38,576 nt of DNA, taken from a virus. The position numbers and the translations under genes were made by a program. The stretch covers positions 1 to 38,576 of the IMG/VR virus record IMGVR_UViG_3300043446_003813; one strand, written 5' to 3'. The notes beneath the pieces are model-generated. The model was not told the DNA's origin, did no database searches, and saw only the letters and a program-made list of their open reading frames with translations. Of this stretch, positions 2,624 to 36,994 are shown piece by piece (within the stretch, counting starts at the first letter, position 1; every line of letters begins with the position of its first letter).

Positions 2624-4126
2624 ATGCCCGGTGTACAGATTACAACCGCAGTACGTACAGGACCAGCAGTAACTGGCGTTGCACCTGATTCAACATTCTT
2701 TGTTGTAGGTGAGACACAGCGCGGAAAGCAGAACACCGCTGTCCTCGTTACCAGCCTTGACGAGTACGTCACCCAATTCGGTGGGTATGAAGCAGATAAG
2801 CACACGTACAACGCTGTGCGGATTTTCTTTGAGGAAGGCGGCGCAAACTGCTATGTTTCGCGTGCAGCAAATGCTGCTTGGGACACTGCGGCTGTGCTTG
2901 TTGAAGACGCAACTGATGAGACCAAGGGAATCACGGTTTCTGCTGCTGGAAGCGGTGAGTGGGGCAATGACATCTCGGTTGTTGTTTCTGCGGGTGACGG
3001 TGTTTTCAACGTGGAAATCCAATACGGCGCCGATAACGAAGTTATCGCTAGCAAGAGTGACCTAACTACAATTGCCGAAGCAATTGAATGGTTTGAAAAC
3101 AGCACTGCAGCCAAGCGCTATGTGCAAGTTGCCCTCGCCGCTGATACTGACGACACGAACGCACTTGGCGCTGGCACATACAACCTAAGCGGTGGCACCA
3201 ACGAAGAAACTGTTGCTGTCGCAGGAGTAGTAAGCGCTCTCGCTGCCTTCACCGAGGAACTCGGAGGTGGCTGTGTTGCTGCGCCAGGTTTTGCAACTGG
3301 TTCCGACACCACGCTCTACGATGCTCTCAAAAACCATGCCGTAAGCCAGAATCGCATTGCTTTGCTCTCCTTCAAGAAGGGCGAGACTAAGGCAAATGCT
3401 ATTTCTAACTCGGAATCATACGGTGCCAGCGATGACACTGGTCACGAGAACGTTGCAATGTACTTCCCATGGGTTACTTTCCCCTCAGGAACAGGCGTAA
3501 CACTAAGTGCTTCTCCCGAAGCATACGTCGCAGCAGTCCGCTCAAAGACCCACAACTCAACTGGGCCATGGAAGGCTTACGCTGGAGTTGAGTCAAACTC
3601 CCGTTTTGTCACTGGTGTCGCAATGGCACTCAGCAAGGCTGACGGCGACGAACTTGACGCGGCTCGCGTAAACCCAATTCGCATCATCGCAAATGATGTG
3701 CGAATCTATGGTGCCCGCTCGCACGCAGGCGCAGGGACAGCGACAAGCGAAGCACGCGAATCGCAGTGGCGTTTCATTACCGCACGCGAAACAATCAACT
3801 ATGTGGTCAACCAAGCAAACATCGCACTGGAGCCACTTGTTTTCTCAACGATTGATGGTCGTAAGACAATCTACGCCGACATCACCGCTGCTTTGCAGTC
3901 GGTTCTTGAGCCAGTCCGCATCGCTGGTGGTCTATATGAAGGTTTCTCGCCAACTGGCAAGCGCCTTGACTATGGCTACACCATCAAGGTTGATGACACT
4001 CTGAACCCAGCAAGCCAACTGGAAAGTGGTCTTGTCAAGGCTCAGGTCGGTATTCGCGTCTCCAGCATTGGCGACAAGATTACGGTCAACATCATCAAGT
4101 CAAACCTGACAACGGCTCTGGTATAA
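2624..4126 (+). CDS. contractile tail sheath protein
   Basis: The 500-aa protein is the tail sheath subunit, which polymerises around the tail tube and contracts on infection. The N-terminus (PGVQITTAVRTGPAVTGVAP followed by FFVVGETQRG) is the classic start of FI/T4 gp18-type sheaths, with the extended N-terminal arm that links neighbouring subunits. The C-terminal third carries the conserved sheath core, including WRFITARETINYVVNQA and EPLVFSTIDGRKTIYADITAAL, and the end (SSIGDKITVNIIKSNL) is the usual beta-strand arm. A good ribosome site (GGAGGA) precedes ATG 2624. The tail tube gene follows after 10 bases with its own strong site. The family assignment is secure. Confidence 0.95.
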   Translation: MPGVQITTAVRTGPAVTGVAPDSTFFVVGETQRGKQNTAVLVTSLDEYVTQFGGYEADKHTYNAVRIFFEEGGANCYVSRAANAAWDTAAVLVEDATDETKGITVSAAGSGEWGNDISVVVSAGDGVFNVEIQYGADNEVIASKSDLTTIAEAIEWFENSTAAKRYVQVALAADTDDTNALGAGTYNLSGGTNEETVAVAGVVSALAAFTEELGGGCVAAPGFATGSDTTLYDALKNHAVSQNRIALLSFKKGETKANAISNSESYGASDDTGHENVAMYFPWVTFPSGTGVTLSASPEAYVAAVRSKTHNSTGPWKAYAGVESNSRFVTGVAMALSKADGDELDAARVNPIRIIANDVRIYGARSHAGAGTATSEARESQWRFITARETINYVVNQANIALEPLVFSTIDGRKTIYADITAALQSVLEPVRIAGGLYEGFSPTGKRLDYGYTIKVDDTLNPASQLESGLVKAQVGIRVSSIGDKITVNIIKSNLTTALV

Positions 4127-23233: not shown

Positions 23234-23539
23234 ATGGCTAATACAGCAAAAGTTCTTTTTAGAGGTGCGGCTACAACGAACACCAATACGGTGCTATATA
23301 CCGCCCCTGCCTCAACGTCCACGGTTATTACAAATATTGTGGTGACTAATACTTCGTCAAGCCCAGCAACATTCACAATTTCAATGAATGGCGTTATTCT
23401 TGCCCCAACTGTTGCAATTAGCGGATACTCAATGACATCGCTTGACATTAAGCAAGTTCTAGCGACAACGCAAACCCTTACAGGGGGCGCGTCCACTGCT
23501 TCGGTCAACTTTCACATTAGCGGAATGGAAATTGCGTAA
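23234..23539 (+). CDS. small beta-sandwich tail protein, paralogue A
   Basis: The 101-aa protein is a strand-rich domain with VLYTAPASTSTVITNIVVTN and SPATFTISMNGV. It resembles the 119-aa product at 26552-26911 (VYYTTPINTTTIVKQIILTN), so the two are paralogues. Proteins of this kind, which begin with 'T.LYT.P..T.T.V..I...N', are common in phages as small virion decoration or adhesin-associated proteins. GAGGTC upstream is the ribosome site. It overlaps by one base with the next large structural gene. Confidence 0.65.
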   Translation: MANTAKVLFRGAATTNTNTVLYTAPASTSTVITNIVVTNTSSSPATFTISMNGVILAPTVAISGYSMTSLDIKQVLATTQTLTGGASTASVNFHISGMEIA

Positions 23540-26295
23540 TGGGTATTCAACAGTTCCCTATAGGTGATACAACAATTGAGGCAAATGAACTTCTTTACGA
23601 CCCAGTAAATAAGTTACGTGTTTCAACTCCACAGTCACTAATTGACACCGACTTTGAATATGGAACGCAGATTTCAAAGTGGGAAAATTTGGCGATGACG
23701 GATAACCGTCCATTCGTCTATAACGCTCAAACACCACTGACTGGCATCACTGCGATTTCGCTTCCAAACCTGTCGCGTACGGTAACTGTTAGCACCACAA
23801 CACCACCAGCAGTCGGCACACCAATCACTGTTACGGATACCCACCTTCCAATTGCTAACGGAAACTTCATTGTAGAAACTGTGACTGCTAGTACGTCATT
23901 TACCTATACCGCACGCGCCGAAAACACTACAACCGTCACATCGCTGCTTGACTCTAATAAGACACAGTTTTTCCAAGGTGCTTTCTACACTGGCGCACAA
24001 ATTGGCTCGGCACCGACCGTTTCGTATTCGGGTACAAAAATTACGGTGACGACAACTTCACCACACGGTCTGTCAATCGGTAACGAAATCGCAATTACTG
24101 GAATCACAACATCTGGAGCCAACCCACCCAACGGTGCTCACTTCGTCGCTGGAATAGTTAGCGCAACCGTTTTCTTTTACTACGTATTCACCGCCCCGAC
24201 TGGAACGCTCACCACGACGTCTGCCGCAGTATATGCACGTCCACAGGGACAGTTCCTGCATCGCCCATTTGACGGCGGTGTTATTTTCTCCAGCAACTCA
24301 ACGTCAAACTATCAATCAGCAATTCGCCAGACGCGGCGCTACTTCCGCTATCAGTCTGGTAAAGGAATTCAGATGAGTTCAGGAACACTCATCAAACCAT
24401 CATTGCAACTTGAGTCACTGACATCATCTGGAACACTTGTTACTGTTCAAACAAAAGAAAAGCATAACCTGCAGCCTGGTTCAACAATTGAGGTATTTGG
24501 AGCAAACGAAAGTGCCTACAACGGCACATTTACTATCTATACGGTTACTGGATTCAATACATTCACGTACCAAGCGCTAAGTACCCCATCATCTGCTACA
24601 GCGTCTGGTTTGTACTATGCAAACATCAGCCAATGGTATGGATGTTCAAACCGTATTGGGTTGTTTGACCAGCAGAACGGCATGTTCTTTGAGCATGATG
24701 GGCAAGAGTTGACTGCTGTTGTGCGTGCGTCTACATACCAAATTTCAGGACGCATTAGCGTTACGAACGGCTCGCCAAGTATCACTCAAACAGATTCGTC
24801 GTTTCCAACACGTTTCGCAAAGCAGTTGGATATTGGTGATTATATTGTGATTCGCGGTCAGTCATACAGAATTATTGACATTGCAAGCGATACGTCAATG
24901 ACTGTCAGCCCTGCATACAGAGGTGCCACGGCGACAATGGTGATTGCGTCAAAGACTGTAGACAGGCACTATAAGCAGTCTGAGTGGAATATTGACAAGA
25001 TGGATGGGACTGGTCCGTCAGGGTATAACGCTGATTTCACAAAGATGCAAATGTTCTTTATTGACTATTCATGGTACGGCGCTGGCGCTATCCGTTTTGG
25101 TCTCCGAGGGACTGACGGTGAAATTAAGTACTGCCACAAGATTGTCAATAACAACGTTAACTCCGAAGCATATATGCGGTCAGGAAACTTACCTGCACGG
25201 TATGAGTCGTCAACACAACCTCCGTACACAAAACTCACGGCATCCCTGACAAACGTTGCTACGAGCATGTCTGTTGTATCAACATACGGTTTCCCAACCG
25301 CTGGGACACTCCTTGTCGCAAATAACCTTGCGGGTTACGAGTTTGTTAACTATACGGGTAAAACCGACACATCGTTTACTGGTCTAACCCGCGCTCAAGC
25401 AGGTCAAGCATCGCTCGCAACAACTGTCGCTAGCGGTTCAAACGTGCTTACTGTTTCAAGTACATCTGGCTTACAGGTAGGACAACGTGTGTACGGAACA
25501 TCAAGTCCTGACGTTCCAGAAAATACATTCATTTCATCAATTGACTCTGCTACACAGGTCAGCCTTAGCCAAGCAGTAACAGCAACAAACCCAACGTTGC
25601 TCTTTGCCCCAATGAATGATGGAACAGCAAAGTCATTTACCTACTCAGCAACCAACCCCGTTGGTGTTGAACTTGCTTGGCCAACATATGCGCCTACCAT
25701 CTCGCACTGGGGCACATCGGCAATCATGGATGGTCGCTATGATGATGATAAGTCACTGCTCTTCACGTACGGTATGACCACGGCAACCGCAATTGCTGCT
25801 GGCGCAACAAACTGCCTTCTTGCCATCCGTGTTGCCCCTTCAGTTGATAACGGAACATCGGGGACATTTGGAAGTCGCGAACTAATTAACCGAATGCAGT
25901 TAATTCTTCGTGCCCTAGACATCACGACGACTACCGCTGGTGCCAACCTCCTCATTACCGCCGTTCTAAACGGTACGCCAAGTGCTGGCAGGACATGGAC
26001 AAAGCCAGCAACAGTCACCTCAAGCCTTGCTGAAGTTGCTGACTACGGCGGAACTACGACCACAATCTCTGGCGGTGAAACAACTGGTGGATTCTTCCTT
26101 GGAACAGGTGCCTACTCAATTGACCTAACCACAGTACGAGACCTCGGAAACTGCATCCTTGGCGGAGGTAGCACGACGAGCGCGACTGGAATCTACCCAG
26201 ACGGACCAGACACGCTACACATCATGGTGCGTAACCTTGGTGCCGTATCCGCATCAGTGTTCGCACGTCTTTCATGGACAGAAGCGCAGGCATAA
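23539..26295 (+). CDS. large virion structural protein (cyanophage-like)
   Basis: The 918-aa protein opens with IDTDFEYGTQISKWENLAM and NRPFVYNAQ. This N-terminal pattern I associate with very large baseplate/tail structural proteins of T4-like cyanophages. It then has repeated beta modules of the form 'V.T...PHGL..G..I.I.G' (about 165-190, 290-340) separated by ANGNFIVETVTASTSFTY-type strands. A central region (about 345-470) is followed by KMQMFFIDYSWYGAGAIRFGLRG, a motif also shared with those proteins. The C-terminal ~250 residues are beta-rich. It is likely a tail-associated adhesin or baseplate peripheral protein. The homology is from memory of motifs, not a search. Confidence 0.7.
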   Translation: MGIQQFPIGDTTIEANELLYDPVNKLRVSTPQSLIDTDFEYGTQISKWENLAMTDNRPFVYNAQTPLTGITAISLPNLSRTVTVSTTTPPAVGTPITVTDTHLPIANGNFIVETVTASTSFTYTARAENTTTVTSLLDSNKTQFFQGAFYTGAQIGSAPTVSYSGTKITVTTTSPHGLSIGNEIAITGITTSGANPPNGAHFVAGIVSATVFFYYVFTAPTGTLTTTSAAVYARPQGQFLHRPFDGGVIFSSNSTSNYQSAIRQTRRYFRYQSGKGIQMSSGTLIKPSLQLESLTSSGTLVTVQTKEKHNLQPGSTIEVFGANESAYNGTFTIYTVTGFNTFTYQALSTPSSATASGLYYANISQWYGCSNRIGLFDQQNGMFFEHDGQELTAVVRASTYQISGRISVTNGSPSITQTDSSFPTRFAKQLDIGDYIVIRGQSYRIIDIASDTSMTVSPAYRGATATMVIASKTVDRHYKQSEWNIDKMDGTGPSGYNADFTKMQMFFIDYSWYGAGAIRFGLRGTDGEIKYCHKIVNNNVNSEAYMRSGNLPARYESSTQPPYTKLTASLTNVATSMSVVSTYGFPTAGTLLVANNLAGYEFVNYTGKTDTSFTGLTRAQAGQASLATTVASGSNVLTVSSTSGLQVGQRVYGTSSPDVPENTFISSIDSATQVSLSQAVTATNPTLLFAPMNDGTAKSFTYSATNPVGVELAWPTYAPTISHWGTSAIMDGRYDDDKSLLFTYGMTTATAIAAGATNCLLAIRVAPSVDNGTSGTFGSRELINRMQLILRALDITTTTAGANLLITAVLNGTPSAGRTWTKPATVTSSLAEVADYGGTTTTISGGETTGGFFLGTGAYSIDLTTVRDLGNCILGGGSTTSATGIYPDGPDTLHIMVRNLGAVSASVFARLSWTEAQA

Positions 26296-26297
26296 TC

Positions 26298-26552
26298 ATG
26301 GCAATTGACTTCCCTGATTCTCCATCAACAAACGACACATATTCTGACTCTGGCAAAACGTGGAAATACAACGGGTACGCGTGGGTTCTTCAGACAATCC
26401 CAACCGCGCTTGCGAATGGTTCAATTGCCTTAACGCAACTCGCTCAGGGTGGGGCAACAACTGGACAGGCTCTTGTTTGGAGTGGCTCCGCTTGGGCTCC
26501 GCATAATGTTGTGCGAGACAATTTGATTAAGTTCTATATGGAGGTCATCTAA
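26298..26552 (+). CDS. small tail-fibre-like protein
   Basis: I choose ATG 26298 rather than the in-frame ATG at 26274, which lies inside the previous gene. This gives 84 aa that begin with the well-known fibre start IDFPDSPSTNDTYSDSGKTWKYNGYAW ('FP..P....Y...G..W.W.G..W'). The following part (ALANGSIALTQLAQGG with TTGQALVWSGSAWAP) is a second WNG-type module. The stop TAA overlaps the ATG of the next gene (26552). It is a small fibre adaptor or shaft piece. Confidence 0.65.
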   Translation: MAIDFPDSPSTNDTYSDSGKTWKYNGYAWVLQTIPTALANGSIALTQLAQGGATTGQALVWSGSAWAPHNVVRDNLIKFYMEVI

Positions 26553-26911
26553 TGGCTGTTACGCAAAAGCGGCTTGGTGGTCCGAGCCAGTTGACTGCCT
26601 CAAGTGCTGTTTACTACACCACGCCAATCAATACGACAACAATTGTCAAGCAAATCATTCTGACGAACACAACATCGTCGTCAAAGACGGTAACTGTTCG
26701 CCTGAAGCCTTATGGTATTTCTGAGGCGGCGACACACGACATTATTAGCGGGATGACCATTAACGCTAATGAGACAATGGCTTTCAACTGCTCGCTAGTG
26801 TTGAACAACAACGGTTCAACAGCAAATGCAACAAACAGTGACCAATTAACGGCACTGTGTAGTTCGGCAACTTCCGTCAATATTACGGTTGTAGGTATTG
26901 AAGAGGCATAA
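26552..26911 (+). CDS. small beta-sandwich tail protein, paralogue B
   Basis: The 119-aa protein is a paralogue of the 101-aa product at 23234-23539, with the same opening strand pattern and the same position just upstream of a larger structural gene. Cys residues occur in two places (NCSLVL, ALCSSA). GGAGGTCA (26540-26547) is its ribosome site. Start and stop overlap both neighbours by one base. A virion decoration or adhesin-accessory role is inferred. Confidence 0.6.
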   Translation: MAVTQKRLGGPSQLTASSAVYYTTPINTTTIVKQIILTNTTSSSKTVTVRLKPYGISEAATHDIISGMTINANETMAFNCSLVLNNNGSTANATNSDQLTALCSSATSVNITVVGIEEA

Positions 26912-27618
26912 TGGCTGGAATGGTTCGCTACCCGGCGTTGAACGCCATGGCGTCCTTTATTGACTCACCCGATGCTGTCTATGGTACGGGCAATGATGGA
27001 AGCGTAACAATGGATGGTTCATCCATTGTTATTGGAGTGACCCCATCAGCAAATGTTTACACTATGTCGCGAGATGTATATTTTTACAATCTTACCATTA
27101 ATGCTGGAGTTCGTCTAAATCCAAACGGCTATCGGGTATTTGTAAAAAACCAGTTGACTCTTGGCGCTAGTGCAACAATCGGCTATACAACTGGTTTCGG
27201 AACATCTGGTTCTATCCAGCAAGGCGGTGCAGCAGATACTGCTGTTACTCATAGTCTTGGTGGGGCATCCCAGACTAGGGCTGCGACAGCGCCAACTGCT
27301 GCTTTGGGTGGTTCACAGTATTTTCAACAACCACTGCAAGCAATAGATGGTTTCTCTGTTACTGCATCTGGCGGTCCGACATTTCTGCGTGGCGGTGCGG
27401 GTGGGGTTGGGCAGATAGGTGGTGGCGTTGTAATTCTTGCTGCCCGCTACATTTCTGGTCCGACAACAGGGACGGCAACAATCTCTGCTAAAGCAACATC
27501 GCCCGCTGGCGGTGGTGTAATTCTTATAGTTTCATCTGGTGCTGCACTTCCAGCAACTGTCACTACTGACGTTACTGGGTATGCGGCAGGCACAGTGAAT
27601 TACATGCAGTTGGTGTGA
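26911..27618 (+). CDS. Gly-rich adhesin scaffold, short paralogue
   Basis: The 235-aa protein has an N-terminal beta domain (YGTGNDGSVTMDGS ... YTMSRDVYFYNLTINAGVRL ... NGYRVFVKNQLTL) and a C-terminal Gly-rich part (RGGAGGVGQIGGGVVILAARY ... GGGVILIVSSGAAL). This is the same order as in the 633-aa protein encoded next, but without its collagen-like and His-rich insert. It looks like a tandem duplicate. Gly-rich loops on such scaffolds form receptor-contacting surfaces in some phage distal adhesins (for instance the polyglycine-II bundle of S16-type gp38). That comparison is structural inference. Confidence 0.6.
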   Translation: MAGMVRYPALNAMASFIDSPDAVYGTGNDGSVTMDGSSIVIGVTPSANVYTMSRDVYFYNLTINAGVRLNPNGYRVFVKNQLTLGASATIGYTTGFGTSGSIQQGGAADTAVTHSLGGASQTRAATAPTAALGGSQYFQQPLQAIDGFSVTASGGPTFLRGGAGGVGQIGGGVVILAARYISGPTTGTATISAKATSPAGGGVILIVSSGAALPATVTTDVTGYAAGTVNYMQLV

Positions 27619-27619
27619 A

Positions 27620-29521
27620 ATGACTGCTGTTGAGCGATACGGAACGCCAAGTCAAGTCCAAAGAGCAGGAAATGATTCTGTTTATGGCAATGGTGTTGAT
27701 GGAAATATAACACTCGCGGCTGGCGCTACGACGCTTTCGCGCGACATGTACTACAACACACTTACCGTCCCAAGTGGGTCATTTCTCAACACTAATGGTT
27801 ATCGTGTTTTTGTAAAAGGAACATTAACCAATAATGGAATTATTGGTATTGCAAGCAGTGCTGGAGTCACGTACACAGAACCATCTGCCGTAACTACTGG
27901 GACAGTATCTGGAACTACATCTAGCAATGCAATTACTTACCGTATAGGTGGAAAAAGTGGCGGTGCTACCGCTGACGGAACAAGCCTTCTCCCTGCAGGA
28001 ATTCTGTATTCGCTTGATGTTGCTACTAAAGGTCTATTCATTGACCCAAACGATAATCAGGTTAAACCGCTAATCGGTGGCGCCGCTGGAACAACTGGTA
28101 GTCAAGGGATAACATACCCCGCACTAACAAATGCTGATACTTGGCCTAATAAAACTGCTCCGACTTCATGGCCGGGTCAGGCTGGCGGTGCTGGCTCTGC
28201 GGGGAACTCTGGCGGTGCAGGTGGTGCGGGGGGCGCTGGTACCGCAGGAAACCTTGGGGCATACCCGCCGAACTCCCACACAGTGGGAGCGGCTGGCGGA
28301 CGAGGATACACAGGAAACTCTGGCAACCCAGGTACAGCAGGAAACCCTGGTGGAACTGGAAACGCAGGCAACCCTGGCACTGCTGGGAACCCCGGCACTG
28401 CTACGGGCGCAAACCCAAGTATCGGAGGCGCAGGCGGCTCTGGTGGTATAGGGGGCGGTGTTGTTGTCGTCGTGGCTAAAACTCTTGCTGGTTCTGGAAC
28501 AATAGTTTCGCTTGGTGTTTCTGGTTCTGCTGGCAGCGTTGGCACAACTGGTACTGCTGGAACTGCAGGCAACCCTGGCTCTGCTGGTACTGCTGGGAAT
28601 ACTGGAACCGCTGGTTCTGCTGGCTCTGCTGGTACTGCTGGAAACACTGGCGCTGCGGCTCCTGCGATTAATACCTCCCCATTTCACCATTCGCACAGAG
28701 TTAGCAGCGGTCATACCAACTCGCAGAATGGTGGGAACTACCCTGGGCTCAACCATGGCATCGGCGGTTCTGACACAGAACCAGGTAATGGTCTTGCCAT
28801 AAACCACGCACATCTTGGACCACATTTTCACGAACAGCACCGTGCTTCACGACTTCACTTCCATATGCCGCATGGAGGTAATACGCAGGGTCATAACCCA
28901 CCTGTTGTTACAAGCAATAAGCCGCTAACACACGGTCCAGGAAACGTTTATCATAACCCTGCACACATTCACCATGTGGGGCATACACATAACCCACACC
29001 ATGACGCAAGCCATGGGCATAATCACCACACTCACAGCAGTCCAGGCAACAGTTCGCACTCCCCCCATCACTTCGGTCCGCACCATGGTCAGCACACTCA
29101 CGGCAACGGAGACGGACATCATGCATACCACTATTACGGTGGACACCATGGAACGCAGCATGCTGGTGGCCCGCACTACCATGCATCTTCGGGCAAGAAT
29201 ATTGGCTCGCCGCATCACGGAACGTACTATGCTGGGGGAACTGGCGGAGCAGGCGGTGCTGCTGGAACTGCGGGGGCAGCAGGAACAGGCGGTGCTGGAG
29301 GAACTGCAGGGACAGCGGGTCCAGGTGGTTCTGCAGCACCAGCGCAACCCCAAGGCGGAACTGGAAAGCGCGGCGGAGCAGGCGGCGGCGGAGGTATCAT
29401 TGTGATTACAGATAGTGCTTCGCTTGGCAGTATTACGACAAATACAAGCGCTGGCTCTACAGCAGATTCAGATTTCAATACTGCTTCATCTGGGTTTGTA
29501 TACTTAATCCAAAACACATAG
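27620..29521 (+). CDS. collagen-like and His-rich phage adhesin
   Basis: The 633-aa protein is the long paralogue of its upstream neighbour. Residues 1-100 are a beta domain (YGNGVDGNITL ... TLSRDMYYNTLTV ... NGYRVFVKGTLTN). Uninterrupted Gly-X-Y tracts lie at about 186-215, 229-261 and 302-343, and a further Gly-rich part at about 539-590. In the Gly-X-Y tracts the repeated triplet is Gly-Asn-Pro, with Pro only in the Y position. Residues about 354-534 hold 45 His in roughly 180 residues (HSHR, HIHHVGHTH, HNHHTH, GHHAYHYYGGHH). The end (GGGGGIIVITDSASLGSI) matches the scaffold of the neighbour. It is likely a distal adhesin. The His segment could bind metal and the triplets could trimerise. 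A prolyl-hydroxylase-type gene lies 0.6 kb downstream. Confidence 0.75.
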   Translation: MTAVERYGTPSQVQRAGNDSVYGNGVDGNITLAAGATTLSRDMYYNTLTVPSGSFLNTNGYRVFVKGTLTNNGIIGIASSAGVTYTEPSAVTTGTVSGTTSSNAITYRIGGKSGGATADGTSLLPAGILYSLDVATKGLFIDPNDNQVKPLIGGAAGTTGSQGITYPALTNADTWPNKTAPTSWPGQAGGAGSAGNSGGAGGAGGAGTAGNLGAYPPNSHTVGAAGGRGYTGNSGNPGTAGNPGGTGNAGNPGTAGNPGTATGANPSIGGAGGSGGIGGGVVVVVAKTLAGSGTIVSLGVSGSAGSVGTTGTAGTAGNPGSAGTAGNTGTAGSAGSAGTAGNTGAAAPAINTSPFHHSHRVSSGHTNSQNGGNYPGLNHGIGGSDTEPGNGLAINHAHLGPHFHEQHRASRLHFHMPHGGNTQGHNPPVVTSNKPLTHGPGNVYHNPAHIHHVGHTHNPHHDASHGHNHHTHSSPGNSSHSPHHFGPHHGQHTHGNGDGHHAYHYYGGHHGTQHAGGPHYHASSGKNIGSPHHGTYYAGGTGGAGGAAGTAGAAGTGGAGGTAGTAGPGGSAAPAQPQGGTGKRGGAGGGGGIIVITDSASLGSITTNTSAGSTADSDFNTASSGFVYLIQNT

Positions 29522-29529
29522 GAGTCAAA

Positions 29530-29772
29530 ATGCCACTATTTGATGAAATTGACAAAAAACAACGCTTGCAAATTCTGCGCGCAACATATAAGTCTCTAGA
29601 AATGGAACTATTTGAACTTCTTGCTCGTCTTGGCATTGACTATGACGAATACGAATTTGGTTCACATCCAGAATTTACCGAATCTCCCGACAATTACTAC
29701 AAGCGTCGGATTATTGAGATTGAGGCTGCGCTGTCAACACTTGAGGCAAAAATAGCAACACTTTCAGAGTAG
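29530..29772 (+). CDS. small helical hypothetical protein
   Basis: The 80-aa protein is mostly helix (QRLQILRATYKSLEMELFELL at 11-31; RRIIEIEAALSTLEAKIATL at 58-78) with an acidic Tyr-rich centre. GGAG precedes ATG 29530 after an 8-base gap from the adhesin gene. It could be a fibre-assembly chaperone because of its place after an adhesin, but no family is recognised. Confidence 0.5.
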   Translation: MPLFDEIDKKQRLQILRATYKSLEMELFELLARLGIDYDEYEFGSHPEFTESPDNYYKRRIIEIEAALSTLEAKIATLSE

Positions 29773-29777
29773 GGATT

Positions 29778-30197
29778 ATGCAGCGTGTCCTTTATGTCCC
29801 TTCGGCAACAACTTTGACTAGTGCCATTTCAGAAGAAGCAGAGTCTCTGGGTGTCACAATTCTGCATGGCGAGAGTGCCCTATCTCGTTATGTTGAATTT
29901 GACCGAGATATTACTCAAGTCATAATGCTTCCCACTGAACGGCTGTGTCTTTTCATGCCGCAAGTACCAATTCGTATGCATCAGAATGTTGAAGTCACAA
30001 ATGACTTCATTGACCTGCGTGACGAAGTAAAATTCGTTCTTAATGGATTCACTATCGTGGAGCCACTTATACTTGAGAAACATTACGCACGTTACGTGAT
30101 TGAAACCACAGGGTACGGCGTTCAAGTATTTGATATTTTTGACAAGGGGATGCAGGTCATAGAACATGGCGAATATTATGTCGTTAACCCTGAATAA
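29778..30197 (+). CDS. hypothetical protein at the start of the enzyme cassette
   Basis: The 139-aa protein is alpha/beta (RVLYVPSATTLTSAISEEAESLG, then YVEFDRDITQVIMLP and HYARYVIETTGYGVQVFDIFD). I recognise no family. Its last 32 bases are overlapped by the oxygenase gene, so it is translationally linked to the cassette. Confidence 0.5.
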   Translation: MQRVLYVPSATTLTSAISEEAESLGVTILHGESALSRYVEFDRDITQVIMLPTERLCLFMPQVPIRMHQNVEVTNDFIDLRDEVKFVLNGFTIVEPLILEKHYARYVIETTGYGVQVFDIFDKGMQVIEHGEYYVVNPE

Positions 30198-30765
30198 AGT
30201 TGCTCCCTGTATTTTCGTCTACGAGAACGCAATTGCCGATGGGGCGCGTTTTATTGAAATGCTTGAAGAGGAGACCGAAAATGAATGGTCATCTCTCCAG
30301 TGGGATTTTTCACGCACTGGCTCTGGGCGTATCAGCGAATATCGTTCATCGCGCCTGTGTTCGCTCGTAGACATAACTCGCCCATGTCGCGAATCTGAAA
30401 TATCTAAGTTGTTTAATGAATCAATACTTAAAAATGTGCATTCGTGCATTAGCGACTATGCCATATACCATGGGATTCCGCCTGAAATGAACGGTGAAGG
30501 GTGGATAGTCCTTAAGTATGAAGGCGAAGCCCAATATAGAACACACTGGGACCATAGTGGTGATAATGGGCGCATGATATCCGTTGTTGCCTTCCCCTAC
30601 TCCACGGCAACTGTTGGTGGTGAACTTCACTTTCCACACTTTAATACTACGGTAAAGCCGCAGACTGGAAGCGTTGTGGTATTTCCATCCAACTTCCCAT
30701 ACACGCATACTGCACACCCAGTTGAAAACGGAATAAAATATTCCTTGGTCACATGGTTGAGGTGA
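30166..30765 (+). CDS. 2-oxoglutarate/Fe(II) oxygenase (prolyl-hydroxylase type), copy 1
   Basis: The 199-aa protein shows the jelly-roll dioxygenase signature. The iron triad is H127, D129 (THWDHSGDNG) and H181 (THTAHPV); the 2-oxoglutarate-binding basic residue is K191 (GIKYSLVTW). GGELHFPHF is the usual strand between them. Such enzymes hydroxylate Pro, Lys or other residues, or small molecules, using oxygen and 2-oxoglutarate. ATG 30166 has GCAGGTC 7 bases upstream; ATG 30178 is an alternative without a site. Proteins of this kind are common in T4-like cyanophages. The substrate is not known here; the neighbouring collagen-like adhesin is a candidate. Confidence 0.82.
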   Translation: MANIMSLTLNKVAPCIFVYENAIADGARFIEMLEEETENEWSSLQWDFSRTGSGRISEYRSSRLCSLVDITRPCRESEISKLFNESILKNVHSCISDYAIYHGIPPEMNGEGWIVLKYEGEAQYRTHWDHSGDNGRMISVVAFPYSTATVGGELHFPHFNTTVKPQTGSVVVFPSNFPYTHTAHPVENGIKYSLVTWLR

Positions 30766-30769
30766 AGTT

Positions 30770-31033
30770 ATGAGTGACCAGATAGAGCGCAAGGACAGAT
30801 TTGAGTGGATTGGTAAACCAGCCCCTCCAGATGGCATCGTAATTCCTGAGGACAACCCTGTCCCCATTATGAGGGACATCCTTCCGCCTAGTCAGGTTGT
30901 TTCAGCAGATGAGGGTTTGAGTATCTTCCGTTGGTTAATGGCGGATGAGTCAGAACGCAAGGACACGCTTTCGGGGTGTAGATTGCTTGATACGTTTGTG
31001 TATTTAGAAATTCCGAAAGAGGACGATGCATGA
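30770..31033 (+). CDS. small hypothetical protein of the halogenase cassette
   Basis: The 87-aa acidic protein has a Pro-rich first half (KPAPPDGIVIPEDNPVP) and an amphipathic second half (LSIFRWLMADESERKD, LLDTFVYLEI). GAGGTGA (30759-30765), overlapping the end of the previous gene, gives its ribosome site. Its stop overlaps the next ATG. No family is recognised. Confidence 0.5.
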   Translation: MSDQIERKDRFEWIGKPAPPDGIVIPEDNPVPIMRDILPPSQVVSADEGLSIFRWLMADESERKDTLSGCRLLDTFVYLEIPKEDDA

Positions 31034-31266
31034 CAATCTCATTTAACTATACGGATAGCGGAGCGCACATAGATGCACTCATCGCGCAGGTGAAGGAACT
31101 CGTTGATGTTCCTTACGAAACAATTGATGTTTCTAATGAGGAGTCGTTCCGTGCTGCTGCTCGGGCTATGCAGGAGCCAATGCGAAGTAAAGTTCTTCAT
31201 ATGTTGAACTACATTGTATTTAACAAACAAATTAACAATGTTTATGGTGGTGAAATTAATGAATGA
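31030..31266 (+). CDS. small hypothetical protein of the halogenase cassette
   Basis: The 78-aa protein is mostly helical, with HIDALIAQVKELVDVPYETI and then FRAAARAMQEPMRSKVLHML. It starts in an ATGA overlap with the previous gene and overlaps the next start by 8 bases. No family is recognised. Confidence 0.5.
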   Translation: MTISFNYTDSGAHIDALIAQVKELVDVPYETIDVSNEESFRAAARAMQEPMRSKVLHMLNYIVFNKQINNVYGGEINE

Positions 31267-32002
31267 GATAAACATTGTTACAGTTGGGAATGCCACTCAT
31301 CGGGTGAGTTCATTCTCATACCCGCCGCAACTCCCTTCCATTGTTGAGTTTAAAGACTTCAGCAAGGATATTTATTCGCGTCTGGTGAATGACGAGCAGT
31401 TTGATTTACGAACATCATCTCGCTCAGAGGAGTTCCTCGCATATGCTCTTGTTGGAGCACCCGGTGGAGAAGATATCGCCCCCGTGGTATGGAGTTCTCA
31501 CGGACAGGCGGAGATGTATGGGCGGCTTTGCGGCGCAAAAGATGTGTTGATTCATACAGTTCCGTATGCTATTTACTTTGCCGCAAATAACTACGATAAT
31601 GTTTATGTTCTTAATTGTGCATCAACACTAATCGCTAAAGAGCACATGCCTGCAGGAACGCCAGAAATCACAAACGTAACAACTCTGGATTGGGCTGATG
31701 CATACACAAATATGCCAGCGCTTGACATGGCAATTGTCATGTATGCACACCTTGCTGCAGATGATTCGTTATTTGACGCAATTATGAATGCCATTCGCCC
31801 AAACGGTTTAGTTGTTATTCACAATGCCTCTAATGGTGGAGCGCTCTATGAAGTTCTGGGGGATAAAAAACCTCTGGACGCTGCGGCAGAAGTTTCCCTC
31901 TCTGCTCTCCTTCATAAGAAAATCCTAGATAGAGGAGATTTTTTAACGCAACACTTTCAGGGATGGGTATCCCACACGGTTTGCGTTAAACTCCCATCAT
32001 GA
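31259..32002 (+). CDS. Rossmann-like protein, possible methyltransferase-related
   Basis: I choose ATG 31259 (247 aa), because GGTGG (31246-31250) is at a good distance and the 45 bases upstream in this frame lie inside the previous gene. Alternating strands and helices run through the protein (DVLIHTVPYAIYFAANNYDNV, NVYVLNCASTLI, LDMAIVMYAHLAADDSLFDA, NGLVVIHNASNGGALYEVL). The last three resemble motifs IV-VI of class I SAM-dependent methyltransferases ('D.v......H...D......i...l.pgG.lvi.n'). The usual GxGxG is missing, so catalysis is doubtful. It overlaps the halogenase start by 4 bases. Confidence 0.45.
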   Translation: MNEINIVTVGNATHRVSSFSYPPQLPSIVEFKDFSKDIYSRLVNDEQFDLRTSSRSEEFLAYALVGAPGGEDIAPVVWSSHGQAEMYGRLCGAKDVLIHTVPYAIYFAANNYDNVYVLNCASTLIAKEHMPAGTPEITNVTTLDWADAYTNMPALDMAIVMYAHLAADDSLFDAIMNAIRPNGLVVIHNASNGGALYEVLGDKKPLDAAAEVSLSALLHKKILDRGDFLTQHFQGWVSHTVCVKLPS

Positions 32003-33483
32003 CTACGGACACCAAGCAACTTAGTTTTGGCATTGTTGGCTCTGGTACTGCAGGTTTGCTTTCAGCAATAATGCTGCGTCAGGCATTCTCAAACTCTCCG
32101 ATAACAATCGTTTCATCAAGCAAGATTGGGATTGTTGGAGTTGGTGAGGGTAGTACTGAGCATTGGCGTGAATTTATGCAACTCTGCGAAATACCACTTG
32201 AGCAGATGATTGTAAAAACTTCAGCAACACACAAATATGGGATTCGTTTTGAGGGGTGGTCAGGGGCGTTCCCCGACTACTTCCATAGTGTCTCAGGGGA
32301 TGAGGCGCTCTTCGGCTGGGGGCTGTACCCAACATATTCTGGGATTCTTGAGAGCGGTCATTCGCTAACGAGCCAGACATCAAGTATCGGTCTTATTCAG
32401 AACAAGATTCGTCGCGAAAACTTACATGCGAATACAAATCAATATCACTTTGACACTTTTAAGTTAAATAACTACTTCACCGAACTATGCTTTAAGCGTT
32501 CAATTAAGATGATTGATGGCGATGTTGCTTCGCTTTCACGCGATACTTCTACTGGGAATATAAGCAGCGTGACGCTTGAGGGTGGATTAGAGGTACAAGC
32601 AGATTTTTGGATTGATGCGAGTGGATTCTCGCGCGTACTAATGACCCACCTTGAATCACATCACTGGAATTCATTCTCCGACTACCTTCTAGTTGATTCG
32701 GCAATCGCAGCGCCGTCTCCCGCATGGGATGAAGGAATACGACCATACACGAGAGCCGTTGCCAAAGATGCTGGTTGGATTTGGGAAATACCAACACAGG
32801 AAAGACGCGGCAATGGCTACGTCTACTGCTCTAAGTTTATTTCAGACGACGAGGCTGTATCAACTCTTGAGAAACAGATTGGCGACCTACAGGTTAGCCC
32901 TCGTTCATTTAAGTTTGATGCTGGACATTTAAAGAATGTATGGACGAAGAACTGTCTTGCTGTCGGTCTAGCAGCAGCGTTTGTTGAACCCCTTGAAGCA
33001 ACATCTATTGGTAGCACAATTCAGCAAATTAGATTTGCGATACCATATTTGGCTTCATATCAACCAAACCACACAGCATCGCAGCGACATTACAACAAAC
33101 TGTTTTCATCAATGATGGACAACATTCTAACAATGATTAGACTTCATTACGTGTCGGATAGGCGCGATACAGAGTTTTGGCGCGCATGCGCCGAAATGAA
33201 GATAAATGATTCGTTGCAGGAACTTCTTGATTTGTGGCAGGAGCGAACACCATGCCGTCATGATGTGGCAAGCATTAATGGCGAGATGTTCCACGCCCCT
33301 CACTTGTTCCACGTGGCTCAAGGGCAGGGTGTATTAAACCCAGATGTTGCCACAACGATGATTGACAGGTTCGGTCTTCGTCGTCAGGTTGAATTAGACA
33401 TTGCAAACAGACGACATGCGCGCTTCAGCCATGAATTGGTTGACCATCGTGAGTCTCTCAAAATGCAGTTTGAAGATAGGTAA
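31999..33483 (+). CDS. FAD-dependent tryptophan-halogenase-type enzyme
   Basis: The 494-aa protein belongs to the flavin-dependent tryptophan halogenase family. The FAD-binding GxGxxG is GIVGSGTAGL at 11-20. The catalytic lysine is K79 in ATHKYGIRFEGW, the same number as in PrnA. The halogenase-specific WxWxIP is complete (WIWEIP, 260-265). The second active-site segment, AFVEPLEATSIG (327-338), supplies E333 and the Thr/Ser thought to hold halide. These enzymes use FADH2, oxygen and chloride, bromide or iodide. Phage members are known from cyanophages (VirX1 iodinates varied substrates). A flavin reductase would be needed and none is seen, so a host one is implied. It starts in an ATGA overlap. 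Confidence 0.92.
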   Translation: MTTDTKQLSFGIVGSGTAGLLSAIMLRQAFSNSPITIVSSSKIGIVGVGEGSTEHWREFMQLCEIPLEQMIVKTSATHKYGIRFEGWSGAFPDYFHSVSGDEALFGWGLYPTYSGILESGHSLTSQTSSIGLIQNKIRRENLHANTNQYHFDTFKLNNYFTELCFKRSIKMIDGDVASLSRDTSTGNISSVTLEGGLEVQADFWIDASGFSRVLMTHLESHHWNSFSDYLLVDSAIAAPSPAWDEGIRPYTRAVAKDAGWIWEIPTQERRGNGYVYCSKFISDDEAVSTLEKQIGDLQVSPRSFKFDAGHLKNVWTKNCLAVGLAAAFVEPLEATSIGSTIQQIRFAIPYLASYQPNHTASQRHYNKLFSSMMDNILTMIRLHYVSDRRDTEFWRACAEMKINDSLQELLDLWQERTPCRHDVASINGEMFHAPHLFHVAQGQGVLNPDVATTMIDRFGLRRQVELDIANRRHARFSHELVDHRESLKMQFEDR

Positions 33484-33488
33484 TTCTT

Positions 33489-34298
33489 GTGGCATTAAAA
33501 AAAATAGATAAGTATTCCGACATAGTTGTCCCCGAGGGAAAAATTGCAATCATCCCTTGGGATAATCGTTTACTTGAGATGCCACCTTTTCAGAATGACC
33601 GTACGCTTCCGCAATGGGTAAAAGAGGCACCAAATGGACAGGGCTCAATACGTCGGTGTGCGGCAACAATGGATTTTCTTACCACTGGCATAACGATTCC
33701 AGCATGGACAAACTTTCGGTTCATCAAAACTGAGAACGACGGAAATTGGGATTTATCGTGCGACCAGTTTGAAGGATTCGCTGGGGAAAGCCCTGAACCA
33801 TTTCGCAGCCAGCCGTTTAATTTTGACCAAACTGGGTCATGCCCTATGACGCGTGTTCGTGAAGTAGAAACGATTGGCTATCCAAAGTTGGTTAACCCAT
33901 TCCGCATTGTTACTGCTCATGGTTGGTCTACTCTCGTGCTTCCCGCAATGTTTGAACCATCACGGCACTACTCAGTATTGCCAGGGATTGTGAATACGGA
34001 TTACTACCACGAGGCGAATTGTGTTTTGAATCTACTCGGCAATGAGTCGTTTGTTATCCAGTGGGGGACGCCATTGATGCATCTCATCCCAGTAAAACGT
34101 GACTCTCTTCCTCATGAGATAGATTTTTATGATGAGAGCGCCGCAAAGTACGTAATTGGTCGCGGTTTTGGCTCTGGTTCACTAAAGCCATCGTTTTCTG
34201 GTTGGTCTTCTGGACGGCTTTATCGTGCCTATCGGCTAAAGCATGATGCGGAACTTGCTAGCAAAAACGCTAAGCGAAAGTGGTGGAGGAAGAAGTGA
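33489..34298 (+). CDS. DUF6065-like protein next to the halogenase
   Basis: The 269-aa protein begins at GTG 33489, with AGG 8 bases upstream. It has GKIAIIPWDNRLLEMPPFQND and PQWVKEAPNGQGSIRRC, followed by GITIPAWTNFRFI and QFNFDQTG-type strands. The centre (TAHGWSTLVLPAMFEP) and FVIQWGTPLMHLIPVKRD give a beta-rich fold. The pattern, and the place beside a halogenase, fit the DUF6065 family, which I recall as recurring with halogenase genes in phages and bacteria. The function is unknown. The end is Lys/Arg-rich. The 'W' and 'P' positions could form a substrate or partner surface. Confidence 0.6.
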   Translation: MALKKIDKYSDIVVPEGKIAIIPWDNRLLEMPPFQNDRTLPQWVKEAPNGQGSIRRCAATMDFLTTGITIPAWTNFRFIKTENDGNWDLSCDQFEGFAGESPEPFRSQPFNFDQTGSCPMTRVREVETIGYPKLVNPFRIVTAHGWSTLVLPAMFEPSRHYSVLPGIVNTDYYHEANCVLNLLGNESFVIQWGTPLMHLIPVKRDSLPHEIDFYDESAAKYVIGRGFGSGSLKPSFSGWSSGRLYRAYRLKHDAELASKNAKRKWWRKK

Positions 34299-34978
34299 TT
34301 TTCCCCCGAGGTCTAGGTTCCGCGATTGGCTACAAAGATAATGTTATTGAAGACTGGCTTTGTGCAGAAATCATTGAGTATGTGGAATCGCATCAAAGCC
34401 TGATGTATGAAGGACCAACAATGGGTGGTCTACATAAGCATATTAAAAATTGTTATGATTTTGGTCTCACTTATTACAATAATCTAGCAGAGACAGAAGA
34501 GCAGCGTCAGGAACTTGGCAGACTCAACGACTTGGTGTTTGAAAGATTTACTCCAGTACTCCAAGAATACTGTCTATATTTTGAAGGCTTAGATGATTGG
34601 AAAAATCGCTACGATACTGGCTATCAGTTCCAAAAATATATGCCCAATGAAGGATTCTACAGGTCGCACTGTGATGGCGGCGTTTATGTAGAACCACCAG
34701 CGAATACGCGGGTTCTTGGCGTGGTCATCTATCTAAATACTGTAGAAAAAGGTGGAGGGACAGAGTTCCCTCTCCACGACCTTGTAGTAAATGCTGTTTG
34801 TGGGAGGGTCTCGTTTTTCCCCGCAAACTTTACGCATCCCCATGCTGGCTTGATGCCGATTGACTCTCCGAAGTATATTTTGAGCACTTTCTGCTACAAC
34901 CAACCAGACTCACCAGACCATGATGCGTTTTTGTCCCTCGCGGACAACTATGCTGAAGCCAAGCAAGTAGAGTCCTAA
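34295..34978 (+). CDS. 2-oxoglutarate/Fe(II) oxygenase (P4H type), copy 2
   Basis: I choose GTG 34295, which overlaps the previous stop as GTGA and has GGAGGA at 34285-34290, giving 227 aa. The iron ligands are H125 and D127 (YRSHCDGG) and, most likely, H181 in NFTHPHAGLMP. The 2-oxoglutarate residue is K193 (SPKYILSTF). The strand GVVIYLNTVEKGGGTEFP is typical of prolyl-4-hydroxylase-type proteins, and GRVSFFPANF leads to the distal His. It is only distantly similar to copy 1, so it is not a recent duplicate. It closes the cassette; the next gene lies 48 bases on. The substrate is unknown. Confidence 0.85.
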   Translation: MIFPRGLGSAIGYKDNVIEDWLCAEIIEYVESHQSLMYEGPTMGGLHKHIKNCYDFGLTYYNNLAETEEQRQELGRLNDLVFERFTPVLQEYCLYFEGLDDWKNRYDTGYQFQKYMPNEGFYRSHCDGGVYVEPPANTRVLGVVIYLNTVEKGGGTEFPLHDLVVNAVCGRVSFFPANFTHPHAGLMPIDSPKYILSTFCYNQPDSPDHDAFLSLADNYAEAKQVES

Positions 34979-35212: not shown

Positions 35213-36994
35213 ATGCCCGGTGCAAACGTATTCGCCTACGACGGCACCGCCTACAAGCCGACCGACCGCGCTCAAAGCGCTGGAATCTTCGCCAGAGGAG
35301 CATCTCTATCGGGTGTCATCTACGTCTACCAGTTATCTAAGCCTGCCGCGTCTACAGTTGCGACACAAATTTGGCAGGGCTTCCCACCCACGCCAAGTCA
35401 AGTTACATTCTCACATAGCACCACAGGTACGGCGCCGAACTCTACCAACAGAACAACCATCTCATGGACTTGCGACAGTAGTGCACTTTTGTCCAAATTT
35501 GAGATATACCAAAAAGTTGGAACTGGCTCTTTTGTGGCACTTTCTACAACAATCGGTTCAGGGACTCGCAGTTATACAGTTGATTCCCATGCCGCAGGTA
35601 CGTTATATACCTATTACGTTCGCGCAGTCGGCATATCTGGGTTAACTAAAAACGGCGCGGAAAATTCTTTTACGTTATCTGCACCAACCTTGACTGGCGT
35701 ATCGCTTGCTGAGCAATCTAAGACGTCGTCTTCTGCTACGTGGAGAATAACTGTACCCGCTGGAACATTTCAAAAAGTTGACTGGTACCTATCAACGGAC
35801 AACACCACATTTACGTTTAGTTCCTCAGCAACTATCGGTTCATCAGCAACGTTCGCTGACTTCACTTGGTCAAGTTTGTCCGAGCGGACAACACGTTACG
35901 TCAGGGCTGTTTTAACCAACTACAGTAACCATGCCACTAGCAACACCGCATCGGTAGGAATCACGACACTAAACCAACCACCCGGCGCCCCATCAATCAG
36001 CAGCGTTTCTGCAGTTTCCGAATCTGACCCTGGAATTGGTGGTGGATATGCCACTACGGGAGAGGTTCGTAAACGGGTGAACGTTACGTATTCACTCGCA
36101 GGGGATAGTGACTACAAAGAGCATACGCTTTACGTATACGGGGATAATGGTTATGGAACTGGACCGAGCGGATATGTAACTGAAATTACACGTACGGATA
36201 ACGCCAACCGTACAGAAACAGTTACTGGTCTTATGCCAAGTACTCGCTACTGGTTCCTTTTGCGTCAACGCGATAATAATAGTGGTGAAACAGATAACTC
36301 TCAAGGTTGGCAAACAGCAGTTACTGAACAAATATGGACTCGTAGTCAGGAAAACGCCTATACATCTTATAGTGCAGGTGGCGAAGTTAATGATACGCGT
36401 GATGGCAACTATCTTGTTGATAGTGTTACTACAATCCCTAATGAAAATAGTTATTCTGCAGCATCACAGATGTGGGACAATAACTTAAGCAACTTCTGGC
36501 TTTCTGGAACCAATAGTACCGTTGGTTCCCCAGACCCAGGCTCCGTTGTTCGCATACGCTTTGAATGCAGCGACTTATATTATGACTACTGGGACTATTA
36601 CATCCGTGGTGTCAACTTCTATCTTCCACGCTCACATAACACAGCAATTCAGGTTCGTGCGGGAACTGCAGGCTCATGGCTTGGTACAGCCGTTAACTCC
36701 AGCATTACAGGCAATAGTGACCCATATTTATATGATGCGGTGAGCCCATCTTCTGGTGAAGAGGATGTTAACTGGAGCGTCTATGTTGGTGTTGGCGACC
36801 CAACATTCCGTGTTCATAATGGGGGCTCTAGTGGTGGTTCAGCGAAATTTGCATTCCGTTTTTGTTTACGGAATATGACTAGCGCATATGGTGGGACAGT
36901 TCTCCGCGCTGGATTTTCGGAATTTAATTTTGTTTACATCAGATATAGGGTTCGTAACAGTACATATAATGCAGCAACGAATCGCTACTATTAA
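35213..36994 (+). CDS. FN3-containing fibre / adhesin protein
   Basis: The 593-aa protein starts with the tail-type GANVFAYDGTAYKPTDRAQSA. Three fibronectin type III-like domains follow: about 62-150 (TTISWTCDSSALLSKFEIYQK ... YVRAVGISG), 155-245 (WRITVPAGTFQKVDWYLS ... YVRAVLTN) and 255-365 (VTYSLAGDSDYKEHTLYVYGD ... PSTRYWFLLRQRD). The C-terminal ~220 residues are Tyr- and Trp-rich beta sheet (QMWDNNLSNFWLSGTNS ... VVRIRFECSDLYYDYWDYYI ... IQVRAGTAGSWLGTAV) and look like a discoidin-type binding domain. FN3 domains on phage virions often make weak glycan contacts. It likely belongs to the virion surface. Confidence 0.7.
   Translation: MPGANVFAYDGTAYKPTDRAQSAGIFARGASLSGVIYVYQLSKPAASTVATQIWQGFPPTPSQVTFSHSTTGTAPNSTNRTTISWTCDSSALLSKFEIYQKVGTGSFVALSTTIGSGTRSYTVDSHAAGTLYTYYVRAVGISGLTKNGAENSFTLSAPTLTGVSLAEQSKTSSSATWRITVPAGTFQKVDWYLSTDNTTFTFSSSATIGSSATFADFTWSSLSERTTRYVRAVLTNYSNHATSNTASVGITTLNQPPGAPSISSVSAVSESDPGIGGGYATTGEVRKRVNVTYSLAGDSDYKEHTLYVYGDNGYGTGPSGYVTEITRTDNANRTETVTGLMPSTRYWFLLRQRDNNSGETDNSQGWQTAVTEQIWTRSQENAYTSYSAGGEVNDTRDGNYLVDSVTTIPNENSYSAASQMWDNNLSNFWLSGTNSTVGSPDPGSVVRIRFECSDLYYDYWDYYIRGVNFYLPRSHNTAIQVRAGTAGSWLGTAVNSSITGNSDPYLYDAVSPSSGEEDVNWSVYVGVGDPTFRVHNGGSSGGSAKFAFRFCLRNMTSAYGGTVLRAGFSEFNFVYIRYRVRNSTYNAATNRYY

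Follow-up and report, generated by a model that had tools for sequence, protein, structure and literature searches.

What do the halogenases carried by phages act on? Their natural role has been open since they were first noticed in cyanophages, and the gene neighbourhood of one of them suggests an answer. The window analyzed here is the whole 38.6-kb stretch (38,576 nucleotides) of the IMG/VR virus record IMGVR_UViG_3300043446_003813, which encodes tail sheath and baseplate genes. A cassette of seven genes on it, designated A to G (30166-34978), includes a flavin-dependent halogenase (E) and two 2-oxoglutarate (2OG) oxygenases (A and G), and lies downstream of a gene for a collagen-like, histidine-rich tail fibre (27620-29521). 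Genes for a halogenase and for collagen-hydroxylase-like enzymes directly follow such a fibre gene in many aquatic bacteriophages, and across relatives the conserved core is the fibre, a 2OG oxygenase, the halogenase, and protein F. Because of this gene linkage, we infer that the fibre is the substrate, and we think it reasonably probable that the cassette hydroxylates and halogenates its neighbouring fibre.

All seven open reading frames were found at 30166-34978, with successive gaps of +4, -4, -8, -4, +5, and -19 bases, which agrees with the compact run with gaps of at most five bases described in an earlier, sequence-only reading of this DNA. The packing of the seven genes therefore stands, while the block proved longer than that reading had it and begins upstream at 26552. 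From the gene at that position (called cap) through those at 26911, 27620, 29530, and 29778 to A, the successive gaps are -1, 1, 8, 5, and -32 bases. From 26552 through to 34978, where G ends, no intergenic gap exceeds 8 bases; cassette and fibre gene therefore form one continuous block. The features are listed below, with fibN denoting the N-terminal domain common to the fibre at 27620-29521 and its paralogue at 26911.

26552-26911, + strand: cap, a small conserved protein of 119 amino acids that heads the block; an anchor outside the cassette
26911-27618, + strand: first fibre paralogue, 235 amino acids, fibN domain, histidine-poor
27620-29521, + strand: second fibre, 633 amino acids, with fibN, Gly-X-Y collagen-like, histidine-rich, and C-terminal glycine-rich segments; proposed substrate
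29530-29772, + strand: 80-amino-acid protein that trails the second fibre in most relatives
29778-30197, + strand: 139-amino-acid protein, overlapping A by 32 bases, its size kept in many relatives
30166-30765, + strand: A, 2OG-Fe(II) oxygenase, prolyl-4-hydroxylase-like (H127xD129, H181, K191)
30770-31033, + strand: B, 87 amino acids, accessory, in close relatives only
31030-31266, + strand: C, 78 amino acids, accessory, in close relatives only
31259-32002, + strand: D, 247 amino acids, no recognised family, with relatives at 27-33% in two further lineages
31999-33483, + strand: E, flavin-dependent halogenase of the Trp_halogenase family, catalytic motifs intact
33489-34298, + strand: F, PHROG 7084 protein, GTG start, a frequent partner of phage halogenases
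34280-34978, + strand: G, second 2OG-Fe(II) oxygenase, GTG start inside F (H130xD132, H188, K198)
35213-36994, + strand: structural-type gene, 593 amino acids, a flank outside the kit (fn3 match at 0.0067, below cut-off)

E matches the Pfam Trp_halogenase family at an E-value of 7.1e-102 (score 342, cut-off 21). It had been described as a tryptophan-halogenase-type enzyme that keeps GxGxxG, K79, WIWEIP, and PLEATS, and each of these was confirmed. The flavin adenine dinucleotide motif is GSGTAG, in which G14, G16, and G19 are invariant among 26 phage sequences; K79, W260, E333, and S336 are likewise invariant across 26 phage halogenases, and E retains both GWIWEIP (the WxWxIP motif) and the PLEATS segment. 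Several halogenase relatives have GWxFEIP in place of GWxWEIP, with phenylalanine for the second tryptophan, so activity may vary. Structure prediction, which the sequence-only reading had proposed as a check, bore out the assignment: the AlphaFold model of E (predicted local distance difference test (pLDDT) 89.1, predicted template modelling (TM) score 0.90) has the halogenase fold, and a Foldseek search with it returned Xcc4156 (6y1w) at 1.1e-39, BrvH (6frl), and classical tryptophan halogenases over near-whole length. By sequence, the solved structures closest to E are the bacterial enzymes Xcc4156, BrvH, and L11 (9luq), at ~27% identity, and these also rank among its closest matches by fold; we know of no natural substrates for them. 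The phmmer alignment of E with PrnA ends at PrnA residue 432, and the C-terminal tryptophan-binding residues of PrnA are 443-459; a whole-fold match is also present. Judged by these motifs, E is an intact-looking flavin-dependent halogenase, of a type with at least 595 confirmed relatives in virus contigs.

Alternatively, E might work as a flavin monooxygenase and introduce a hydroxyl group or a cross-link at an aromatic fibre residue, much as its LodB-type and QhpG-type relatives modify their protein partners. The best of the weak NCBIfam matches of E are in fact to these protein-modifying enzymes, QhpG at 1.1e-8 (34.5 vs 240 bits) and LodB at 1.8e-6 (27.3 vs 400 bits), both far below the equivalog cut-offs. 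We consider this very unlikely, given that E keeps the halogenase signature of K79, the PLEATS glutamate and serine, and WxWxIP, and that its fold matches Xcc4156 and BrvH.

The two dioxygenases claimed for the cassette, A and G, are both 2OG-Fe(II) oxygenases by Pfam (2OG-FeII_Oxy_3; 3e-11 for A and 1.8e-7 for G, both above curated cut-offs). An HxD...H metal triad and a 2OG-binding lysine were identified in A (H127, D129, H181, K191) and in G (H130, D132, H188, K198), with each residue at least 90% conserved. The closest chains in the PDB to A are the procollagen-proline dioxygenase 5iax and the prolyl 4-hydroxylase (P4H) 3itq, at 1.4e-7, and those closest to G are also P4Hs, at 0.002. The HxD...H...K layout and the best PDB match are thus shared with bacterial collagen-type P4Hs (3itq, 5hv0, 5iax), although the similarity is weak and spans ~55-95 residues, and proline hydroxylation by A and G is a prediction. 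Viral prolyl hydroxylases have been discussed alongside tail-fibre collagen, and their use was called cryptic (PMC9301287).

The proposed substrate, the fibre at 27620-29521, matches Pfam Collagen (PF01391) at 5.8e-8 (score 32.8 vs a cut-off of 27.2) and a PHROG tail fibre at 5.5e-5, and contains a segment dominated by histidine, glycine, asparagine, proline, and tyrosine, which the sequence-only reading left unmentioned. A 60-residue stretch with at least 10 histidines was present in 106 of the 111 fibN proteins that reach 300 amino acids, compared with 17 of 2237 other genes from the same loci. Pooled from 108 fibres, the variable domain contains 17.3% histidine, 3.3% tyrosine, and 0.8% tryptophan. 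The variable domain of one fibre (L336) has 46 histidines, zero tyrosines, and zero tryptophans, and the halogenase is still present at that locus. Searches of the cap protein and of one fibre (from L358) against named phages gave no match. Two loci carry an extra histidine-rich gene (17-18 histidines per 60 residues) downstream of the module and outside the fibN family (L036:14773-16854 and L037:7853-9904).

To evaluate the linkage, relatives were collected from IMG/VR scans with E, F, the fibN domain, and the cap protein, yielding several hundred loci; for all linkage counts, the scan queries were derived from cassette loci and the best 80 matches per scan were kept. The seven genes had been read as one unit, which the relatives did not support. 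B, C, and D vary, and no more than four contigs, all close relatives at 60-85% identity, had the full set, so we rejected it as a conserved unit and treat these three genes as accessory. The common order is cap, a histidine-poor fibN fibre, a histidine-rich fibN fibre, proteins of ~80 and ~138 amino acids, a 2OG gene, accessory genes where present, the halogenase, and F. Among distinct cap-anchored fibN loci with at least 8 kb downstream, a halogenase and a 2OG gene were present in 41 of 41 and F in 34 of 41, and the sole cap locus that lacks a fibN fibre (L364) has no halogenase, 2OG gene, or F. On the enzyme side, the upstream sequence was at least 3.5 kb long for 68 distinct halogenases, of which 61 had a fibN fibre nearby, 61 a 2OG gene, 60 a histidine-rich gene, and 59 F; the nearby histidine-rich gene was the fibN fibre in all listed cases.

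The set also stays together where its layout changes. On one contig the module occurs twice; both copies have a cap, a fibre pair, a 2OG gene, and a halogenase of their own, and the two halogenases are 47% identical. The halogenase lies directly behind the fibre, with the 2OG genes later, in L030 and L031, and the enzymes are upstream of the cap and fibre, still adjacent, in L351 and L358. The last two had been candidates for halogenase-free fibre loci and were rejected as such, since the halogenase gene is upstream of the cap. Three loci from the same halogenase clade (L029, L033, L034) have a different glycine-rich gene nearby (Gly_rich_2, as shown for L033), and F is missing. Three contigs from metagenome-assembled genomes, L052 (labelled Actinomycetota), L053, and L054 (Gammaproteobacteria), bear the same module and are probably phage sequence. 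In some loci a protein of 350-390 amino acids directly precedes the halogenase (L305:13421-14512, L309:8115-9164, L026:8854-10017, L299:11750-12850); the L305 member had no Pfam match.

Such linkage could also reflect hitchhiking: were the fibre locus a hotspot of recombination, a selfish or neutral cassette could travel along with the fibre exchange unit while having no functional connection to the fibre. As one expects of cargo sites, the accessory genes that separate fibre and halogenase do turn over (B, C, and D here, the 350-390-residue protein elsewhere), and linkage alone cannot prove function. However, the association holds in every distinct cap-anchored fibN locus counted above and survives both changes of order and replacement of the fibre, and the active-site residues are invariant among halogenases down to 33% identity. 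Hitchhiking therefore strikes us as distinctly unlikely.

The fourth member of the core, F, had been labelled DUF6065-like. It belongs instead to PHROG 7084 (2.8e-26), and DUF6065 was rejected, with no Pfam match to it for the window protein at an E-value of up to 0.1 or for 21 members of the F family at up to 0.01. The AlphaFold model of F (pLDDT 75) had dUTPases as all 50 of its best Foldseek matches (best E-value 5.9e-5, TM-score to target ~0.4-0.67), and Pfam dUTPase was matched by one of the 21 members (1.1e-6). On this modelling F probably has a dUTPase fold. We do not call it a dUTPase because catalytic motif III (I-D-x-D-Y-R-G) is altered, the aligned segment reading (V/I)(H/N)TD(F/Y)Y(H/Q). 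In the Halorubrum virus HSTV-3 (L293:8821-11795), an F homologue is separated by a few genes from a histidine-poor "putative adhesin" with a fibN domain (2 histidines per 60 residues), and neither a halogenase nor a 2OG gene is present, which suggests that F may serve the fibre rather than halogenation. For D, the label Rossmann-like is unproven: no significant match was found in Pfam, PHROGs, NCBIfam, or PDB sequences, including a profile search of the PDB.

A related arrangement surrounds the crystallised phage halogenase VirX1. A protein of the cyanophage Syn10 (L292:7284-8873) matches VirX1 (6qgm) over its full length. Like E, VirX1 is a member of the Trp_halogenase family with an F homologue directly downstream and, in Syn10, overlapping it (PHROG 7084, 1.8e-71; both within L292:7284-9648) and with glycine-rich tail-fibre proteins a short way upstream, and at least one recognisable 2OG-type gene follows, as in the window. 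Ahead of it lie a second halogenase, a gene for a 164-amino-acid protein, and two Gly_rich_2 / PHROG 863 tail-fibre proteins with histidine-containing loops. Unlike E, VirX1 sits on another branch of the phage halogenase tree and is paired with that second halogenase, and its neighbouring fibre is of the Gly_rich_2 / PHROG 863 type, whereas that of the window is a collagen-like fibN protein with a histidine-rich segment. This context bears on the natural substrate of VirX1. P-TIM40 has the same layout as Syn10, the halogenase adjoins glycine-rich genes in S-SZBM1, S-SRM01, and Sf-CH11, and a glycine-rich gene lies 5-9 kb from it in S-H38 and HTVC008M. The Actinomycetia phage DSL-LC01 (L381:10222-15691) has a divergent halogenase homologue one gene behind collagen-like genes, with the lysine kept and altered EPLD and GWVSKIP motifs.

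Several observations weigh against the fibre as the substrate. Of 15 loci sampled from named phages, seven (S-PM2, Syn1, Sf-CH3, P-SSM2, S-B64, S-SSM7, and S-SCSM2R) showed no strongly glycine-rich gene near the halogenase, and neither did one faecal phage contig. HSTV-3, the only halogenase-free relative of the fibre that turned up, keeps F beside a fibN adhesin without either enzyme, and other relatives that lack a halogenase may be underrepresented, since all queries were drawn from cassette loci and each scan was limited to its best 80 matches. Small indoles, phenols, and pyrroles are the usual substrates of those flavin-dependent halogenases that have been studied well, and fibre loci are hotspots for cargo genes. 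Fibre modification, moreover, is deduced from gene order and sequence.

These points leave room for a different role, in which the enzymes produce or decorate a small molecule (an antibiotic, a signal, or a modified sugar) for the protection or manipulation of the infected host and sit beside the fibre incidentally. Readings of this kind have been published for the 10-gene halogenase/2OG cluster of the jumbo cyanophage S-SSM6a, as secondary metabolites or capsule decoration (PMC7824862), for cyanomyovirus halogenases, as antibiotic protection (PMC2984593), and for DSL-LC01, as secondary metabolism (PMC10611076). The S-SSM6a cluster resembles the window in combining a phage halogenase with 2OG oxygenases but its description also includes carbamoyltransferases and phosphatases, and it was interpreted as synthesizing metabolites (PMC7824862). 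In S-SSM7, whose halogenase locus is similar to that of S-SSM6a, the halogenase is surrounded by carbamoyltransferase and sugar genes, with no glycine-rich gene adjoining it. In the window's own group, however, the halogenase is conserved together with the fibre, a P4H-like oxygenase, and F, no other enzyme set was seen to be kept with them, and the genome with two modules has a fibre for each. For this group we judge a small-molecule product unlikely, while still taking it seriously.

If the cassette does modify the fibre, A and G would hydroxylate fibre residues, most simply the prolines of Gly-X-Pro repeats. A host reductase would supply E with reduced flavin, and E would add chlorine or bromine to aromatic side chains (histidine, tyrosine, or tryptophan) of the glycine- and histidine-rich part, with F as a possible accessory or docking factor. 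The modification might harden the adhesin, tune metal binding, or alter receptor binding. Tyrosine and tryptophan are chemically easier halogenation targets than histidine, and histidine is the most plentiful aromatic-type residue of these fibres. More tentatively, and as a possibility that we would not yet bet on, phages may make halogenated, hydroxylated histidine-rich adhesins, possibly with halogenation of histidine itself, and the same may hold for VirX1, in which case tail-fibre proteins would be what a large group of viral halogenases naturally act on. The Nereis jaw provides a functional analogy, being a histidine-rich structural protein with halogenated aromatics, in an animal material for which no homology is claimed; its proteins contain up to 27% histidine and, by extended X-ray absorption fine structure, brominated tyrosine (PMC8410824).

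A virion protein had already been proposed as the substrate in the sequence-only reading; the linkage now points to one such protein, the fibre at 27620-29521, and protein halogenation itself remains a prediction. With these conserved neighbours the role of the halogenase can be tested directly, by measuring the mass of a single tail-fibre protein from purified virions. If the fibre is indeed halogenated, this would be, to our knowledge, the first known enzymatic halogenation of a virion protein. Host range or stability would then be controlled at a new level, and the enzymes would provide a source of protein-acting halogenases. The accompanying claim that the gene set was undescribed outside cyanophage-like genomes was partly right for the set as such, while the halogenases themselves have the numerous viral relatives counted above and cyanophage clusters of halogenase and 2OG genes were noted before (PMC7824862). 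No report of a link between a halogenase and a tail fibre was found in the open-access literature (most subscription journals and all preprints were outside the search). The enzyme families are known, and neither the conserved module of fibre, halogenase, and hydroxylase nor its connection to VirX1 appears to have been described in that literature.

Other features of the window were also recorded. A promoter scan found sigma-70-like sites at no more than chance level. Three similar stretches of 20-25 nucleotides (GCAACnCnnTCAGnG), at 26430-26454, 29755-29774, and 31943-31967, lie ahead of the starts of cap, the 139-amino-acid gene, and E, and may reflect chance or a shared signal. A 23-nucleotide inverted repeat, 91% complementary, has its arms at 33521-33543, near the start of F, and 34930-34952, near the end of G. 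Upstream of the block, 23539-26295 encodes a 918-amino-acid virion protein with ~45% identity to a virion structural protein of cyanophages; in Syn1, Sf-CH3, and S-PM2 this cyanophage counterpart is ~1.5-3.2 kb away from the halogenase. The tail sheath (2624-4126) is closest (~32%) to those of Gordonia and Arthrobacter phages and, together with the Actinomycetota-labelled contig L052, hints at an actinobacterial host.

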